From contig NZ_LR792632.1 in assembly GCF_902827225.1 (NCBI RefSeq), positions 949,030-1,013,029 on the forward strand: a stretch of DNA of 64,000 nucleotides, written 5' to 3'. The notes under the pieces are model-generated. The model had not been told where the DNA came from. It saw nothing but the letters and a program-made list of their open reading frames with translations, and did no database searches. Origin of the DNA: Methanocaldococcus lauensis. GTDB lineage: Archaea; AGJL01; Methanococci; Methanococcales; Methanocaldococcaceae. Of the stretch, positions 3,448 to 13,647 are shown one piece after another; positions within the stretch are counted from its first letter, which is position 1, and each line of letters begins with the position of its first letter. The translations under genes and the position numbers were made by a program.

Positions 3448-4293
3448 TTATTCTAATTCTTCAATTTTGTCTTTATAATATAAAGCAATTGCTCTCTTTG
3501 AGAATACCTCCATAAAAAATCCAACAAAACTGGAAACAATTGTTGAAATTAATTTAATAATAATCATTGGCGTTGAGGGGATATATTCATAATAGAATGA
3601 AGGTGTCTGTGCCGCATAGAGCATATAAACTATAATGAACGGAGATGACACAATAAGTAATACAATTACTGTTATAATTACTACAAGAATTAATAAAACA
3701 ACATATTTTAAAGACATTAACTTAAATATTTTCTTAAACTCAAAAAATCCAAAGAATCCTTTAACAGAAAAATTAACCTCTGCGAGATATGAATATAATA
3801 TAAAGAGAATAATTAATAGTATCATTAACAGTAACGAAATTAACAGTAATGGTAATCCTATAATTCCACTACTATCTATAGCCATAGCGAATATTCCAAT
3901 AATAAACAAAATAATCAATGGTAACATAAAAATAATTACTAAAATAAGCGTTCCTATTGTATATAAAAATCCTTTTACGAGTAAATCAGATATATTATTC
4001 CATTCTGGCAAAGTATTGGAACCTTCAACTGTTGTTTTCATAACTCTAATATAATAACCATCTACTAAAAATCCAACTATTAAACCAATCAAAAACCCAA
4101 TTGACGATAATATCAAAAGAGTCGTAAATTTTTCTAAATAAACACCTTCCATCATTCCTGGTTCAATAACTATTGATACAAAGACACTCAACGCCCCAGA
4201 TATAGCGTATAATAAACCTCCAACTAATCCTTTTTTTATATCTGAGAAAGCATATCTAAATGCATCTGAAATATAGTCCTCTAATTTTCTCAT
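3448..4293 (-). CDS. Multi-pass membrane protein, DUF4013-like, paralog 1
   Basis: A 281-residue membrane protein with about six hydrophobic segments. The N-terminus MRKLEDYISDAFRYAFSDIKKGLVGGLLYAISG, the central VDGYYIRVMKTTVEGSNTLPEWN and the GFFGFFEFKKIFKLMSLKY segment are repeated nearly unchanged in the neighbouring upstream paralog. This pattern is that of the archaeal DUF4013 family, whose function is unknown. The start ATG at 4291-4293 has a strong GGAGGATG site. The pair looks like a tandem duplication and an operon, with only 44 bases between paralog 2's stop and this start. No catalytic or transport motif is visible. Confidence 0.75.
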   Translation of the reverse strand: MRKLEDYISDAFRYAFSDIKKGLVGGLLYAISGALSVFVSIVIEPGMMEGVYLEKFTTLLILSSIGFLIGLIVGFLVDGYYIRVMKTTVEGSNTLPEWNNISDLLVKGFLYTIGTLILVIIFMLPLIILFIIGIFAMAIDSSGIIGLPLLLISLLLMILLIILFILYSYLAEVNFSVKGFFGFFEFKKIFKLMSLKYVVLLILVVIITVIVLLIVSSPFIIVYMLYAAQTPSFYYEYIPSTPMIIIKLISTIVSSFVGFFMEVFSKRAIALYYKDKIEELE

Positions 4294-5686: not shown

Positions 5687-7660
5687 ATGTCCCCAAGAGT
5701 TGGGGTATTTGTCTGTTATTGTGGATCTAACATTAATGGTGTTGTAGATTGTGAGGCAGTTAGAGATTTTGCAGAAAAATTAGATGGAGTTGTTGTTGCT
5801 AAAACATATCCTTTTATGTGTGCTGATCCAGGTCAAAACTTGATTAAAGAATGTATAAAGGAATATAACTTAGATAGGATCGTTGTAGCTGCATGTACTC
5901 CAAAGATCCACGAGCCTACTTTTAGAAATTGTATAAAAGAAGCAGGGTTATCTCCATATTACTTGGAGTTCGTAAATATTAGAGAACAGTGTGCATTTGT
6001 ACATATGAATGATCCAGAAAAAGCTACTAAAAAGGCAATGGAGTTAGTTGCAGGAGGTGTAGAAAGAGCTAAGAAATTAGAAGATGTTCCTCAAAAAGTT
6101 GTTAATGTAGATAAATCTTGCCTTATAATTGGAGGAGGTATTGCAGGAATCCAGGCAGCTCTTGACTTGGGAGATCAAGGTTATAAAGTATATTTAGTAG
6201 AGAAAGAGCCATCAATTGGAGGAAGGATGGCTCAACTTGCTAAGACATTCCCAACTGATGACTGTGCTATGTGAATTTTGGCTCCAAAGATGGTTAGCGT
6301 TGCAAACCACCCCAATGTTGAGCTCATAACCTATGCCGAAGTTAAAAATATCGAAGGATACATCGGAAACTTTGAAGTTACAATTGAAAAAAAGCCAAGA
6401 TATGTTGATGAAAATATTTGTACTGGATGTGGAGCCTGTGCCGCAGTTTGTCCAATTGAAGTTCCAAATGAGTTTGATTTAGGATTAGGTACAAGAAAAG
6501 CAATTTATGTTCCATTTGCTCAGGCAGTTCCATTGGTATATACAATAGATATGGAACACTGTATAAGATGTGGACTCTGTGAAAAAGCTTGTGGCCCTGG
6601 AGCTATAAGATACGATCAAAAACCAGAAGAGATTAAATTGAAAGTAGGAACAATAATCTGTGCAGTAGGTTATGATGAATTTGATGCAACATTAAAAGAA
6701 GAGTATGGATATGGAGTTTATGATAATGTCATAACAACATTAGAATTAGAGAGGATGATTAACCCCGCAGGTCCTACTGGTGGGCATGAAATAAGACCAA
6801 GTGATGGAAAGCATCCTCATAGAGTAGTATTTATACAGTGTGTAGGTTCAAGAGATGCTAAAGTTGGAAAACCATACTGTTCAAGAATTTGCTGTATGTT
6901 TGCCTTAAAGAACGCTCAGTTACTTAAACAGCATGACCCTAATACTGAAGTTTATATCTGCTATATGGATATCAGGGCTTTCGGTAAAGGATATGAAGAA
7001 TACTATAGAAGAGCTCAGGAACAGTTTGGAGTTAAGTTCATTAGAGGAAGACCAGCATGCATAATGGAAGATCCAGAAACAAAGAACTTAATTGTTAGAG
7101 TAGAAGATACATTGTTAGGAGAAATTGTAGAAATTGAAGCTGATTTAGTTGTATTGTCAGCAGGATTATCACCAAGACCAGACAATCCAAAATTAGCAAA
7201 AATGCTTGGTATAGAATTAAGTCCAGATGGATTCTTCAAAGAATTACATCCAAAGTTAGCTCCAGTAAATACAAAAGTTGATGGTGTAGCAATTGCAGGA
7301 GTTGCTCAAGGACCAAAAGACATTCCAGATACAGTTGCTCAAGCGAAAGGGGCTGCAAGTGCAGTGTCAATACCAATGGCTCAGGGAGAGTTTAAGATTG
7401 AGATGATTAGAGCAGTTGTTGATGAAGATATTTGTGGAGGATGTGAAGTTTGTGCTAAAATGTGTCCATATAATGCTATAACTTATGTAGAAAAAGATGG
7501 ACATAAAGTAGCTCAAGTTAATGATGTTGCCTGTAAAGGTTGTGGAGCATGTGCTGGAGCATGTCCAAGTGGTGCTATGCAGTTGAGATATTACAGAGAT
7601 GAGCAAATAATTTCATTTATTGATGGAGTATTAGAGGCTCACCAAAAATTAGAGAGTTAA
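5687..7660 (+). CDS. hdrA: Heterodisulfide reductase subunit A (selenoprotein HdrA)
   Basis: 657 residues when the in-frame UGA at 6272-6274 is read as selenocysteine 196, within PTDDCAM-Sec-ILAPKM; HdrA family members have Cys or Sec there. Order: N-terminal domain with GVFVCYCG, an FAD-binding [10 protein letters not shown] (about residues 153-162), the Sec region, then four CxxCxxCxxxC [4Fe-4S] motifs beginning CTGCGAC, CIRCGLC, CGGCEVC and CKGCGAC. HdrA holds the bifurcating flavin that couples H2 oxidation by the Vhu hydrogenase to CoM-S-S-CoB and ferredoxin reduction. Start ATG 5687 has the strong site GGAGGTGA; a reading from 5660 lacks one. It heads the vhu/fwdB cluster. A SECIS hairpin and antisense segments lie in its 3' UTR. 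Confidence 0.96.
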
Positions 7661-7663
7661 AAA

Positions 7664-7723
7664 GGCACAGGCTCCACATCTATCCATATAAATATGGCAT
7701 AGGTTATGAGCTCAACATTGGGG
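7664..7723 (+). repeat. Antisense copies of hdrA coding sequence in hdrA 3' UTR
   Basis: Two blocks in the 3' UTR are perfect reverse complements of hdrA coding sequence. Bases 7696-7723 (28 nt) pair with 6310-6337, starting 35 nt after the Sec UGA. Bases 7664-7680 (17 nt) pair with 6426-6442. The blocks keep antisense order, separated by 15 nt containing the palindrome 7684-7697. The SECIS starts 20 nt further on. A 28-nt perfect match at this place is far beyond chance. The function is unknown; long-range mRNA pairing is my inference. Confidence 0.85.
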
Positions 7724-7743
7724 GTAGATAAATACCAAATGAG

Positions 7744-7776
7744 GCACCATCCGAAGGCTTTTTGCCAGGATGGTGC
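7744..7776 (+). promoter_or_regulatory. SECIS element of hdrA
   Basis: Archaeal SECIS architecture is complete: a 9-bp lower stem (7744-7752 with 7768-7776), the asymmetric internal loop GAA (7753-7755) opposite a single A (7767), a GGC/GCC upper stem and a five-T apical loop (7759-7763). It lies 83 nt after the hdrA stop and serves UGA 6272-6274, about 1.47 kb upstream. A further short hairpin (GGGCA/TGCCC, 7784-7795) follows. Confidence 0.93.
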
Positions 7777-7881
7777 TGATGGGAGGGCATGTGCCCGTAA
7801 TTATCTCTTTCTAATTTCTCTTTACTAATTTAATAGATCACTATTTAAAACTAATAAAATTCAAATTATAAGGGGATGTGT

Positions 7882-8289
7882 ATGAGTGATCCAATAATAA
7901 TTGCATTCTGTTGCTATCAATGAGGATATGGGGCTGCAGATTTAGCGGGAACCAGTAAAATGCAATACCCTGCAACCGTAAGAATCGTTAGGCTCCCTTG
8001 CACAGGTAAGTTTGACATTACTTATGCATTAAGGGCCTTCCAAAAGGGAGCCGATGCCGTTATGGTTGTAGGATGAAAGAAAGGAGAGTGTGCCTACGAA
8101 ACAGGGAACTTTAAAGCTGAAGAGAGGGTTAGGTTCGCTAAACAATTGTTAGACGAATTAGGAATTTGTGGAGAGAGAATTGAAATGTTTTTCATGACAG
8201 CAGCTGAAGCAGACAAATTTGTAGCTGCAGCTAATGAAATGACTGAAAGAGTTAAAAAGTTAGGACCTAACCCTCTCAAAGCTCAGTAA
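7882..8289 (+). CDS. vhuD: F420-non-reducing hydrogenase subunit D (VhuD), two selenocysteines
   Basis: 135 residues from ATG 7882, with two in-frame UGA codons at 7921-7923 (Sec14, in FCCYQ-Sec-GYG) and 8074-8076 (Sec65, in VVG-Sec-KKGEC). Standard gene finding misses it because of these. The family (MvhD/VhuD, delta subunit) carries an iron-sulfur centre and docks the hydrogenase to HdrA, passing electrons to its flavin; Cys versions have Cys at the same places. Further Cys residues at 10, 11, 40 and 70 can act as ligands. GGGGATGTG lies just before the start. It sits between hdrA and vhuG, with its own SECIS 22 nt after the stop serving both UGAs. Confidence 0.93.
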
Positions 8290-8290
8290 A

Positions 8291-8373
8291 GCCGGAGATT
8301 AAAGGGATGAGTTCTCTCGGGAACCCGAAAGGGACCGAGAGAACAACCGCCCCTATGTGAGGGGTTCTCCGGC
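8291..8373 (+). promoter_or_regulatory. SECIS element of vhuD within a three-way junction
   Basis: The SECIS proper is 8311-8344: a 10-bp stem (8311-8320 with 8335-8344), GAA (8321-8323) opposite A (8334), CCC/GGG and a GAAA loop. It is enclosed by an 8-bp outer stem pairing 8291-8298 with 8366-8373, which also encloses a small C4/G4 hairpin (8350-8353 with 8361-8364). The vhuD SECIS is thus one arm of a predicted three-way junction. One SECIS must serve the two UGA codons of vhuD. Confidence 0.9.
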
Positions 8374-10639: not shown

Positions 10640-10792
10640 ATGGCTGAAAAAAGCACAGTAAAAGTTGATGAGGCTAAATTAAACTTAATAGAGATCGTTT
10701 TAAGAGCATATGATCCTTGATATTCATGTGCGGCACACATAATAGTAAAAGATAAGAAAGGAGAAAAAATTATTGAAGTTATAAAAGAATAA
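10640..10792 (+). CDS. vhuU: F420-non-reducing hydrogenase selenocysteine peptide (VhuU)
   Basis: A 50-residue peptide, with UGA 10718-10720 read as Sec27 in DP-Sec-YSCAAH. This is the C-terminal large-subunit motif DPUxxCxxH; the Sec is a terminal ligand to nickel in Sec-type hydrogenases. The residues after the His (IIVKDKKGEKIIEVIKE) remain, whereas in ordinary large subunits the segment after this motif is removed by a maturation protease. Start ATG 10640 is chosen because GGTGA at 10630-10634 is five bases before it; ATG 10634 overlaps that site. It lies between vhuA and vhuB and is easily missed because it is short and contains UGA. Confidence 0.94.
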
Positions 10793-10827
10793 GCTCACAA
10801 CCGAACCCTTTTGGGAGGTTGTGAGCT
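10792..10827 (+). promoter_or_regulatory. SECIS element of vhuU, overlapping the stop codon
   Basis: An 11-bp stem (10792-10802 with 10817-10827), GAA (10803-10805) opposite A (10816), CCC/GGG, and a TTTT apical loop. The first stem base is the last base of the vhuU UAA stop codon, so the hairpin begins inside the stop. It lies only 72 nt after the UGA codon, the shortest UGA-SECIS spacing in the window. Confidence 0.93.
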
Positions 10828-12082: not shown

Positions 12083-12113
12083 ATAGAATAATATATAATT
12101 TAGGTGAGTAAAT

Positions 12114-13421
12114 ATGGTAAAAGTCGTTAGAAATGTAGTATGCCCATTTTGTGCGACATTATGTGATGATTTAGAGATATTAGTTGAAGATAACCACATA
12201 GTAGGGACAAGACATGCTTGTAGAATTGGAAATGCAAAGTTTATGCACTTCGAGGGGGCTGTTAGATATACTGAACCTTTAATGAGAGAGAACAAAAAAG
12301 ATGATTTCAAAAAAGTTGATTATGATACAGCAATTGAAGAGACTGCAAGATTATTAGTTGAATCATCCTTACCTTTAATTTATGGATGGAGTGCAACTGA
12401 ATGTCATTCACAAATGTATGGAGTTGAGTTAGCTGAATTAGTCGGGGCAGTTATTGACAATACAGCAAGTGTTTGACACGGACCTTCAGTTATGGCATTG
12501 CAGGATGTAGGATACCCAGTTTGTACATTAGGAGAAGTTAAAAACAGAGCTGATGTAGTTATATTTTGGGGAAGTAATCCAATGCACGCCCACCCAAGAC
12601 ACATGAGTAGATATTCAATATTCGCAAGAGGATTTTTCAGAGAAAGAGGAAGAGAAGACAGAACTATGATTGTTGTAGACCCAAGAGAGACAGATACTGC
12701 GAAATTGGCTGATATACACTTACAGGTTGAACAGCATAAAGATTATGAATTAGTTAGTGCAATGAGAGCAGTGTTAAAAGGATTTGAATTACAAGTTGAT
12801 AGAGTCGCTGGAGTTCCAGCTGATTTAATCTATGAGGCAGTTGAAATTTGTAAAAATGCTCAGTTTGGAGAGTTGTTTTTCGCAATGGGAGTAACAATGA
12901 CAAGAGGTAAGCATAGAAACATTGATAATGCTATTCAATTAGTAATTGATTTAAATGCATATACAAAATTCGGATTAATGCCAATGAGAGGTCACTACAA
13001 CGTAAATGGATTCAACCAGGTCTTAACTTGGGTTACAGGTTATCCATTTGGCATTGATTTCTCAAGAGGTTACCCAAGATACAATCCTGGAGAGACTACA
13101 GCTAACGATTTATTACAAAGAGGAGAAACTGACATGATGTTAAATATTGCTTCAGACCCAGGGGCTCACTTCCCACAAAAAGCTGTAAAACACATGGCAA
13201 AAATACCATTAGTATGTATAGAACCTCATGAAACTCCAACAACTCAATTAGCGAATATTATAATCCCCCCAGCAATTGCTGGAGTTGAAGTTGAAGGAAC
13301 AGCATATAGAATGGATGGTGTTCCAATTAAATTAAGAAAAGTTATTGATCCTCCAGAAGGCGTTTTACCAGATAAAGAAATATTGAAGAGGCTCATTAAG
13401 AAAGTTAAAGAGATGCTCTAA
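12114..13421 (+). CDS. fwdB: Tungsten formylmethanofuran dehydrogenase subunit B (selenoprotein FwdB)
   Basis: 435 residues when UGA 12474-12476 is read as Sec121, in NTASV-Sec-HGPSV, the position of the W/Mo ligand (Cys in other species). N-terminal [12 protein letters not shown] gives Cys ligands for a [4Fe-4S] cluster. The rest ([52 protein letters not shown]) fits the catalytic pterin subunit of formylmethanofuran dehydrogenase, which reduces CO2 to formylmethanofuran with ferredoxin, the first step of methanogenesis. TAGGTGAG lies upstream of ATG 12114. It closes the Sec cluster, linking CO2 reduction to the bifurcating Hdr-Vhu complex. Other fwd genes are not present here. Confidence 0.95.
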
Positions 13422-13472: not shown

Positions 13473-13519
13473 GGGGTGGGCGTGCAACGCTAACCATCTT
13501 TGGGTATCCTACATCCTGC
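13473..13519 (+). repeat. Antisense segments in fwdB 3' UTR complementary to hdrA and fwdB
   Basis: Bases 13483-13503 (21 nt) are a perfect reverse complement of hdrA 6284-6304, starting 9 nt after the hdrA Sec codon; 13473-13479 adds 7 more complementary bases (hdrA 6307-6313). Bases 13501-13519 (19 nt) are a perfect reverse complement of fwdB 12500-12518, starting 23 nt after the fwdB Sec codon. The SECIS follows 13 nt later. Locally 13481-13490 can also pair with 13518-13527 (9 of 10), which would compete. The function is unknown. Confidence 0.85.
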
Positions 13520-13532
13520 GTTACACGTCGTA

Positions 13533-13566
13533 TGTTGGAGGGGAACCCGTAAGGGACCCTCCAACA
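13533..13566 (+). promoter_or_regulatory. SECIS element of fwdB
   Basis: A 10-bp stem (13533-13542 with 13557-13566), GAA (13543-13545) opposite A (13556), CCC/GGG and a GTAA loop. It lies 111 nt after the fwdB stop and about 1.06 kb from the UGA at 12474. A run of T follows the hairpin, so it may also serve near a transcript end. Confidence 0.93.
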
Positions 13567-13647
13567 TTTTATTATTTTAGACACTTAAATTTATTAATTT
13601 AAATTTATAAATTAAATTTTATAAAATAAAAAATTATAATGATAACT

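Follow-up and report, generated by a model that had tools for sequence, protein, structure and literature searches.

Antisense segments as probable guides that bring distant SECIS elements to selenocysteine codons in thermophilic Methanococcales

How can a SECIS element that lies beyond the stop codon act on a selenocysteine (Sec) UGA far upstream in the same gene? The hdrA locus of Methanocaldococcus lauensis raises this question in an acute form, with its SECIS in the 3' UTR and antisense copies of its own coding sequence (CDS) beside that SECIS. Archaeal SECIS elements are not tied to a strict limit of distance (PMC9622424), and a factor that binds them is not known (PMC2933860, PMC11881835). 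The window is the whole stretch of 64,000 nt that was analyzed, and coordinates below refer to it. We call the antisense segments guides and their complements in the coding sequence targets, and positions marked + are counted from the U of the UGA (6272 in hdrA).

5687–7660, plus strand: hdrA, selenocysteine-containing heterodisulfide reductase subunit A; the frame continues across the in-frame TGA
6272–6274, plus strand: Sec UGA codon of hdrA, the in-frame TGA being kept in every orthologue read
6310–6337, plus strand: hdrA target 1 (+39 to +66), pairs with 7696–7723; covariation
6426–6442, plus strand: hdrA target 2 (+155 to +171), pairs with 7664–7680; pairing retained with altered letters in L006 and L009
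7664–7680, plus strand: hdrA 3'-UTR guide 2, reverse complement of 6426–6442
7696–7723, plus strand: hdrA 3'-UTR guide 1, reverse complement of 6310–6337; covariation and folding
7735–7782 (stem 7743–7777), plus strand: hdrA SECIS with GAA/A bulge, GAA at 7753–7755; Rfam flpD RNA, RF01737

The 460-aa part of HdrA that follows the TGA has one orthologue at 78–100% identity in nearly every Methanococcales genome, and Cys paralogues carry TGT at the position of the Sec UGA. A cmscan match of 45.2 bits (E=1.3e-7) places the SECIS beside the guides in the flpD RNA (RF01737)/methanogenic SECIS family, a model that covers the 47-nt SECIS and kink-turn only and excludes guides and long-range pairing. 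The element is enclosed by an AUGA..CUGA kink-turn-like frame. A C/D-box guide RNA (GAUGA/CUGA near antisense) was considered at this place and dropped; the motif is the SECIS kink-turn frame and persists without the antisense. A reading of the sequence alone had described perfect 28-nt and 17-nt blocks in antisense order, and both are confirmed: 7696–7723 is a perfect reverse complement of 6310–6337 over 28 nt (35 nt at 91% when extended), and 7664–7680 of 6426–6442 over 17 nt. Target 1 begins 35 nt past the UGA, 19 nt separate the end of guide 1 from the SECIS stem at 7743, and the UTR order of guide 2, guide 1 and SECIS makes the two helices nested.

Several further structures were seen at hdrA loci. 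A local hairpin is possible at 6288–6310 in the coding sequence just past the UGA (GGTTAGCGTTGCAAACC), where silent sites are nearly invariant across Methanocaldococcus. A second hairpin stands immediately 3' of the SECIS at 7779–7795 (GGGCATGTGCCC); its counterparts in other genera (GAGCTATGTAGCTC, GGACTATGTAGTCC) seem to co-vary, and the hairpin seems to be absent from loci without the SECIS. No fdhA-like guide was found 3' of the hdrA SECIS, and this local hairpin occupies its place. The hdrA of G035 (L148) has a third antisense block of 17 nt (2363–2379 with 3527–3543 of that locus, UGA+240), again in nested order.

The same reading held that matches of this length could not be due to chance. 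With UTRs shuffled under a dinucleotide model, the longest UTR–CDS complement was 9–14 nt. The 64-kb window contains four exact inverted repeats of at least 15 nt with GC of at least 0.35, each at a Sec gene. Matches of at least 16 nt (GC at least 0.4, 100–8000 nt apart) in a 400-kb control from the same genome occurred solely around 16S rRNA, where an inverted match is expected from the rRNA processing stem. That stem, the sole comparable case in the control, resembles the hdrA pairing in its long-range inverted pairs and ~1.5-kb loop but serves rRNA excision, not recoding. Shuffles, repeat scan and control together rule out a chance origin. A chimeric assembly, also raised earlier, is ruled out by identical blocks in independent assemblies, e.g., Methanocaldococcus sp. 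SG1 (LR792634.1) and the MAG JALVUY010000244.

The search for hdrA covered 14 genomes from the family and 36 from the order. UTRs bearing the hdrA SECIS nearly always hold a segment complementary to that hdrA, and the segment varies with the gene: the paired letters are CCCCAATG/CATTGGGG for Methanocaldococcus, CCCTAATG/CATTAGGG for the genus of L033–L034, and CCCTAACG/CGTTAGGG for L035–L038 and L040. The match is split into pieces at both ends of the same region in L042–L044, L048, and L049. Own hdrA–UTR pairs score above between-clade swaps (41.2 vs 27.9) and not above within-clade swaps, so that site-by-site covariation counts are the better test. By this measure, eight pairs changed on both sides, with 26 double-change cells against 10.8 when shuffled (0/500). 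Silent-site suppression, which we treat as supportive only, is clear at hdrA +13 to +42 and selD +4 to +36, weaker in fwuB, and absent at hdrA target 2. The hdrA UTRs without a GAA/A SECIS (L008, L010–L013, L045–L047) hold no complement to hdrA, and in L005 both the SECIS and the guide are degraded. The suggestion that pairing between hdrA and its UTR might be conserved or covary in relatives is thus borne out across thermophilic Methanococcales, with double-sided compensatory changes. That the complementarity represents RNA pairing under selection is well supported by these comparisons.

Could the blocks nevertheless be a functionless inverted duplication or gene conversion, or an assembly chimera? 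A recent inverted duplication would leave a perfect 28-nt identity of this kind. However, conservation across genera with compensatory changes, the UTR block of L007, which is kept although the silent sites of its hdrA have drifted, the independent assemblies, and recurrence at the same position with respect to the UGA in five genes leave this explanation next to no probability. At the level of sequence comparison, covariation and gene specificity refute it, and the covariation also rejects the recombination origin that had been proposed as an alternative.

Some of the UTRs with an altered element deserve description. Those of L008, L010, L011, L012, and L013 retain an AUGA-stem-CUGA kink-turn hairpin and have lost the GAA/A bulge (e.g., AGATGAGGCACCGAAAAGGTGCTGAT); the result is a very short element, closer in look to the eukaryotic SECIS core. 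For the Sec-hdrA genes L045, L046, and L047, a strict pattern that may miss divergent elements recognised no SECIS, either in the 3' UTR or up to 1.5 kb downstream.

The layout of hdrA recurs in other Sec genes, beginning with fwuB in the same window.

12105–13421, plus strand: fwuB, formylmethanofuran dehydrogenase subunit B, Sec UGA at 12474–12476; start approximate
12500–12518, plus strand: fwuB target 1 (+27 to +45), pairs with 13501–13519; covariation
12583–12595, plus strand: fwuB target 2 (+110 to +122), pairs with 13474–13486
13474–13486, plus strand: fwuB 3'-UTR guide 2, 13 nt, pairs with 12583–12595
13501–13519, plus strand: fwuB 3'-UTR guide 1, 19 nt, pairs with 12500–12518; covariation
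13532–13567, plus strand: fwuB SECIS, GAA at 13543, from the SECIS pattern

Guides occur with fwuB orthologues in most thermophiles. Six pairs covary (12 double-change cells against 3.2 when shuffled, 0/500), and the guide mirrors even amino-acid changes, the variants GATGTA, GAGGTA, GAGATA, and GAAATA each being matched in the UTR. No guide was found in the fwuB UTRs that have no SECIS (L062, L064, L078). A guide of 17–22 nt directed to UGA+10 to +14 accompanies selD, which lies outside the window, in every Methanocaldococcus copy examined and also in L081 and L084. These guides fall into five co-varying sequence types, and in the 18-bp core six pairs show changes to both members and no pair a change to only one, apart from isolated unpaired cells. 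The selD of G013 (L091) has a 20-nt guide, but the first 110 nt of its UTR contain no SECIS; the element is perhaps further down or lost.

A fourth case is vhuD, which lies between hdrA and fwuB.

7882–8289, plus strand: vhuD (frhD/flpD), with two Sec UGAs at 7921–7923 and 8074–8076
8122–8134, plus strand: vhuD target (+49 to +61 of the second UGA), 13 nt exact with 8265–8277
8265–8277, plus strand: vhuD guide, in the final vhuD codons just upstream of the vhuD SECIS
8311–8344, plus strand: vhuD SECIS from the pattern, GAA at 8321

Twelve genomes have this pairing at 12–13 nt, and in G003 both sides have changed; the first vhuD UGA has no guide of at least 12 nt. For fdhA we reproduced the published 5'-UTR version, in which guides flank the SECIS and pairing starts at +29. 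The GAA/A signature of the SECIS, with its GC-rich stem and short upper stem and loop, was found at 7753, 8321, 10803, and 13543. The longest UTR complement of each gene tested begins at UGA+11 to +39 and never elsewhere in the coding sequence; over the tested genes the complement is located at UGA+11 to +49.

Absence of guides follows a pattern of its own, for which the window provides an internal negative control.

10718–10720, plus strand: vhuU Sec UGA, with its SECIS (10792–10827) just 71 nt off and no guide

No guides were found in fruA (12 genomes) or vhuU, both with the SECIS ~70–90 nt from the UGA, or in four Cys-type paralogues. The guide rule is therefore distance-dependent and Sec-specific, and on the sequences compared it is a multi-gene rule that takes in hdrA, fwuB, selD, vhuD, and, in the 5' UTR, fdhA. 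The sequence-only reading, framed around a single gene, was right about the hdrA pairing and missed both this rule and a second guide against hdrA in the fwuB UTR. Guides are long in thermophiles and are 10–11 nt or absent in Methanococcus-like genomes. The Sec hdrA and Sec fwuB of G003, G008, and G012 have neither SECIS nor guides of their own, and in the hdrA–fwuB clusters of G003 and G012 (L140, L141) the only SECIS elements of the operon are those of vhuD and vhuU. The arrangement of these two clusters suggests that several UGAs of an operon can share a single SECIS. Because the UTRs of several Sec-hdrA and Sec-fwuB genes lack both guide and SECIS, guides are not essential in every case.

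We consider it probable that the antisense segments are SECIS guides that dock a distant SECIS just 3' of the Sec UGA. Where the SECIS of a thermophilic Methanococcales gene is far from its UGA, the adjoining UTR would carry at least one antisense segment, and pairing with the coding sequence from about 7–50 nt past the UGA would give the SECIS an entry point just 3' of that codon. In hdrA, nested helices of 28 and 17 bp would close a loop of ~1.4 kb and leave the SECIS at the end of the duplex that is nearer to the UGA. The Sec-tRNA, its elongation factor, and a putative archaeal SECIS-binding factor would be kept near the ribosome reaching the UGA; the ribosome would then unwind the duplex, which would re-form for the next one. 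Full-sequence folds of hdrA (2.2 kb), fwuB (1.5 kb), and vhuD (0.5 kb) form every proposed helix, and the predicted mean pair probabilities exceed 0.93 at 37 °C as well as at 80 °C. We infer that the SECIS itself would be positioned by the pairing and that docking would raise Sec insertion. Docking would carry a cost, in that each ribosome must unwind a 28-bp duplex. Bacterial SECIS elements lie directly downstream of the UGA, within the coding sequence itself. The docked signal would likewise stand immediately past the UGA, but as a UTR element brought there by long-range pairing.

The distance from UGA to duplex is 35 nt in hdrA, 23 in fwuB, 45 in vhuD, and 7 in selD, a variation from 7 to 45 nt that we count against docking. 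It also bears on another reading, in which the duplex serves as a roadblock, holding the ribosome at the UGA or immediately past it to give time for Sec insertion, and proximity of the SECIS is secondary. Stimulatory hairpins follow eukaryotic Sec codons, the selD duplex begins close enough to the UGA to fit, and hdrA +13 to +33 is able to pair with the fwuB UTR. However, the own duplexes of hdrA, fwuB, and vhuD lie past the mRNA entry channel, a local hairpin would be simpler, and the guide always adjoins the SECIS, which makes the roadblock quite improbable.

The pairing of hdrA with the fwuB UTR extends the docking model to a second gene.

6284–6304, plus strand: hdrA +13 to +33, target of the fwuB-UTR guide, 21-nt perfect complement of 13483–13503; silent sites almost invariant
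13483–13503, plus strand: anti-hdrA guide inside the fwuB 3' UTR, between the two fwuB guides and overlapping each by 3–4 nt

This anti-hdrA guide, 7.2 kb downstream of its target, is 21–23 nt long in eight Methanocaldococcus genomes. Its target falls within hdrA +13 to +42, one of the most silent-site-conserved stretches of the gene, a stretch that can also form a local hairpin. The hdrA of G013 (L142) is without its own SECIS or guide, while the fwuB SECIS and anti-hdrA guide are present; in G006 the anti-hdrA guide is present and hdrA's own SECIS and guide are degraded. The guide would lend the fwuB SECIS to the hdrA UGA, and in G013 the fwuB SECIS would act as the recoding signal of hdrA. 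The fwuB and hdrA tags share 3 nt and would form crossing pairings; a single SECIS could then alternate between two UGAs separated by 7.2 kb. A general addressing system, in which antisense tags in SECIS-bearing UTRs dock the SECIS at chosen UGAs, including that of another gene, is a tentative extension that we regard as possible.

The distant position of the anti-hdrA segment might instead be taken to indicate action in trans on hdrA, fwuB, or selD, either by antisense RNAs derived from the 3' UTRs or by the fwuB UTR on a separate hdrA transcript. Nearly all guides match their own gene in nested antisense order, however, and hdrA to fwuB form one compact, co-oriented cluster, so that the cross-gene pair can also form in cis. 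Action in trans is accordingly very improbable.

The closest precedent for SECIS guides is fdhA1, in which the flanks of a 5'-UTR SECIS are complementary to the ORF 43 nt 3' of the UGA; this complementarity is conserved in Methanococcales and longer in thermophiles (PMC11881835). That paper describes complementary flanks for fdhA1 alone, hdrA is absent from its text, and in the openly accessible literature we found nothing on ORF-complementary SECIS flanks in other genes. As in fdhA1, segments beside the SECIS are complementary to the own ORF (28 and 17 nt in hdrA, 19 and 13 in fwuB, 13 in vhuD, 20 in selD), the complement lies shortly 3' of the UGA, and in hdrA, fwuB, and selD the pairing is kept by compensatory change. 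Unlike fdhA1, the SECIS is 3' of the stop codon in hdrA, fwuB, and selD and on the 3' side of the gene in vhuD. Both flanks pair in fdhA1, whereas these four genes have a guide only 5' of the SECIS, and hdrA, fwuB, and selD have no complement of at least 11 nt 3' of it. Two nested guides are frequent, and the fwuB UTR adds a cross-gene guide. The precedent is thus extended here to the 3'-UTR SECIS, to several genes, and to cross-gene guides. Together with compensatory covariation across genera, the full-length folds, the shared layout of fwuB, selD, and vhuD, and the absence of guides where the SECIS is near or the gene Cys-type, it supports the earlier proposal that the 3' UTR folds back to place the SECIS at the UGA.

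In a bla reporter with a 5'-UTR SECIS in the mesophile M. maripaludis, the complementary flanks were dispensable and raw activity was unchanged; with them, mRNA fell about 3-fold and activity per mRNA rose about 2-fold (PMC11881835). Considered with the missing distance limit and the guide-less genomes, this indicates that guides seem to assist, most strongly in thermophiles, without being strictly required. The drop in bla mRNA would also suit a duplex that regulates mRNA level or translation without positioning the SECIS. When selenium is scarce, ribosomes would stop at the UGA, and the freed downstream region would pair with the UTR, the double strand blocking translation or inviting RNase cleavage; the paired region does lie just past the UGA, in a stretch whose traffic of ribosomes depends on the supply of Sec. 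Such regulation leaves unexplained why guides are absent in fruA and vhuU, equally Sec-dependent with a nearby SECIS, and why guide and SECIS are lost jointly, and the fdhA guides flank a SECIS in the 5' UTR. We therefore judge it unlikely.

To the question of how an archaeal UTR SECIS reaches a UGA more than 1 kb away, for thermophiles a conserved, covarying helix between SECIS guide and coding sequence gives a concrete answer in terms of RNA acting in cis. A guide beside a distant SECIS would offer a design rule for selenoprotein expression. Through sequence pairing, a single recoding signal may be directed to particular stop codons, possibly in more than one gene.
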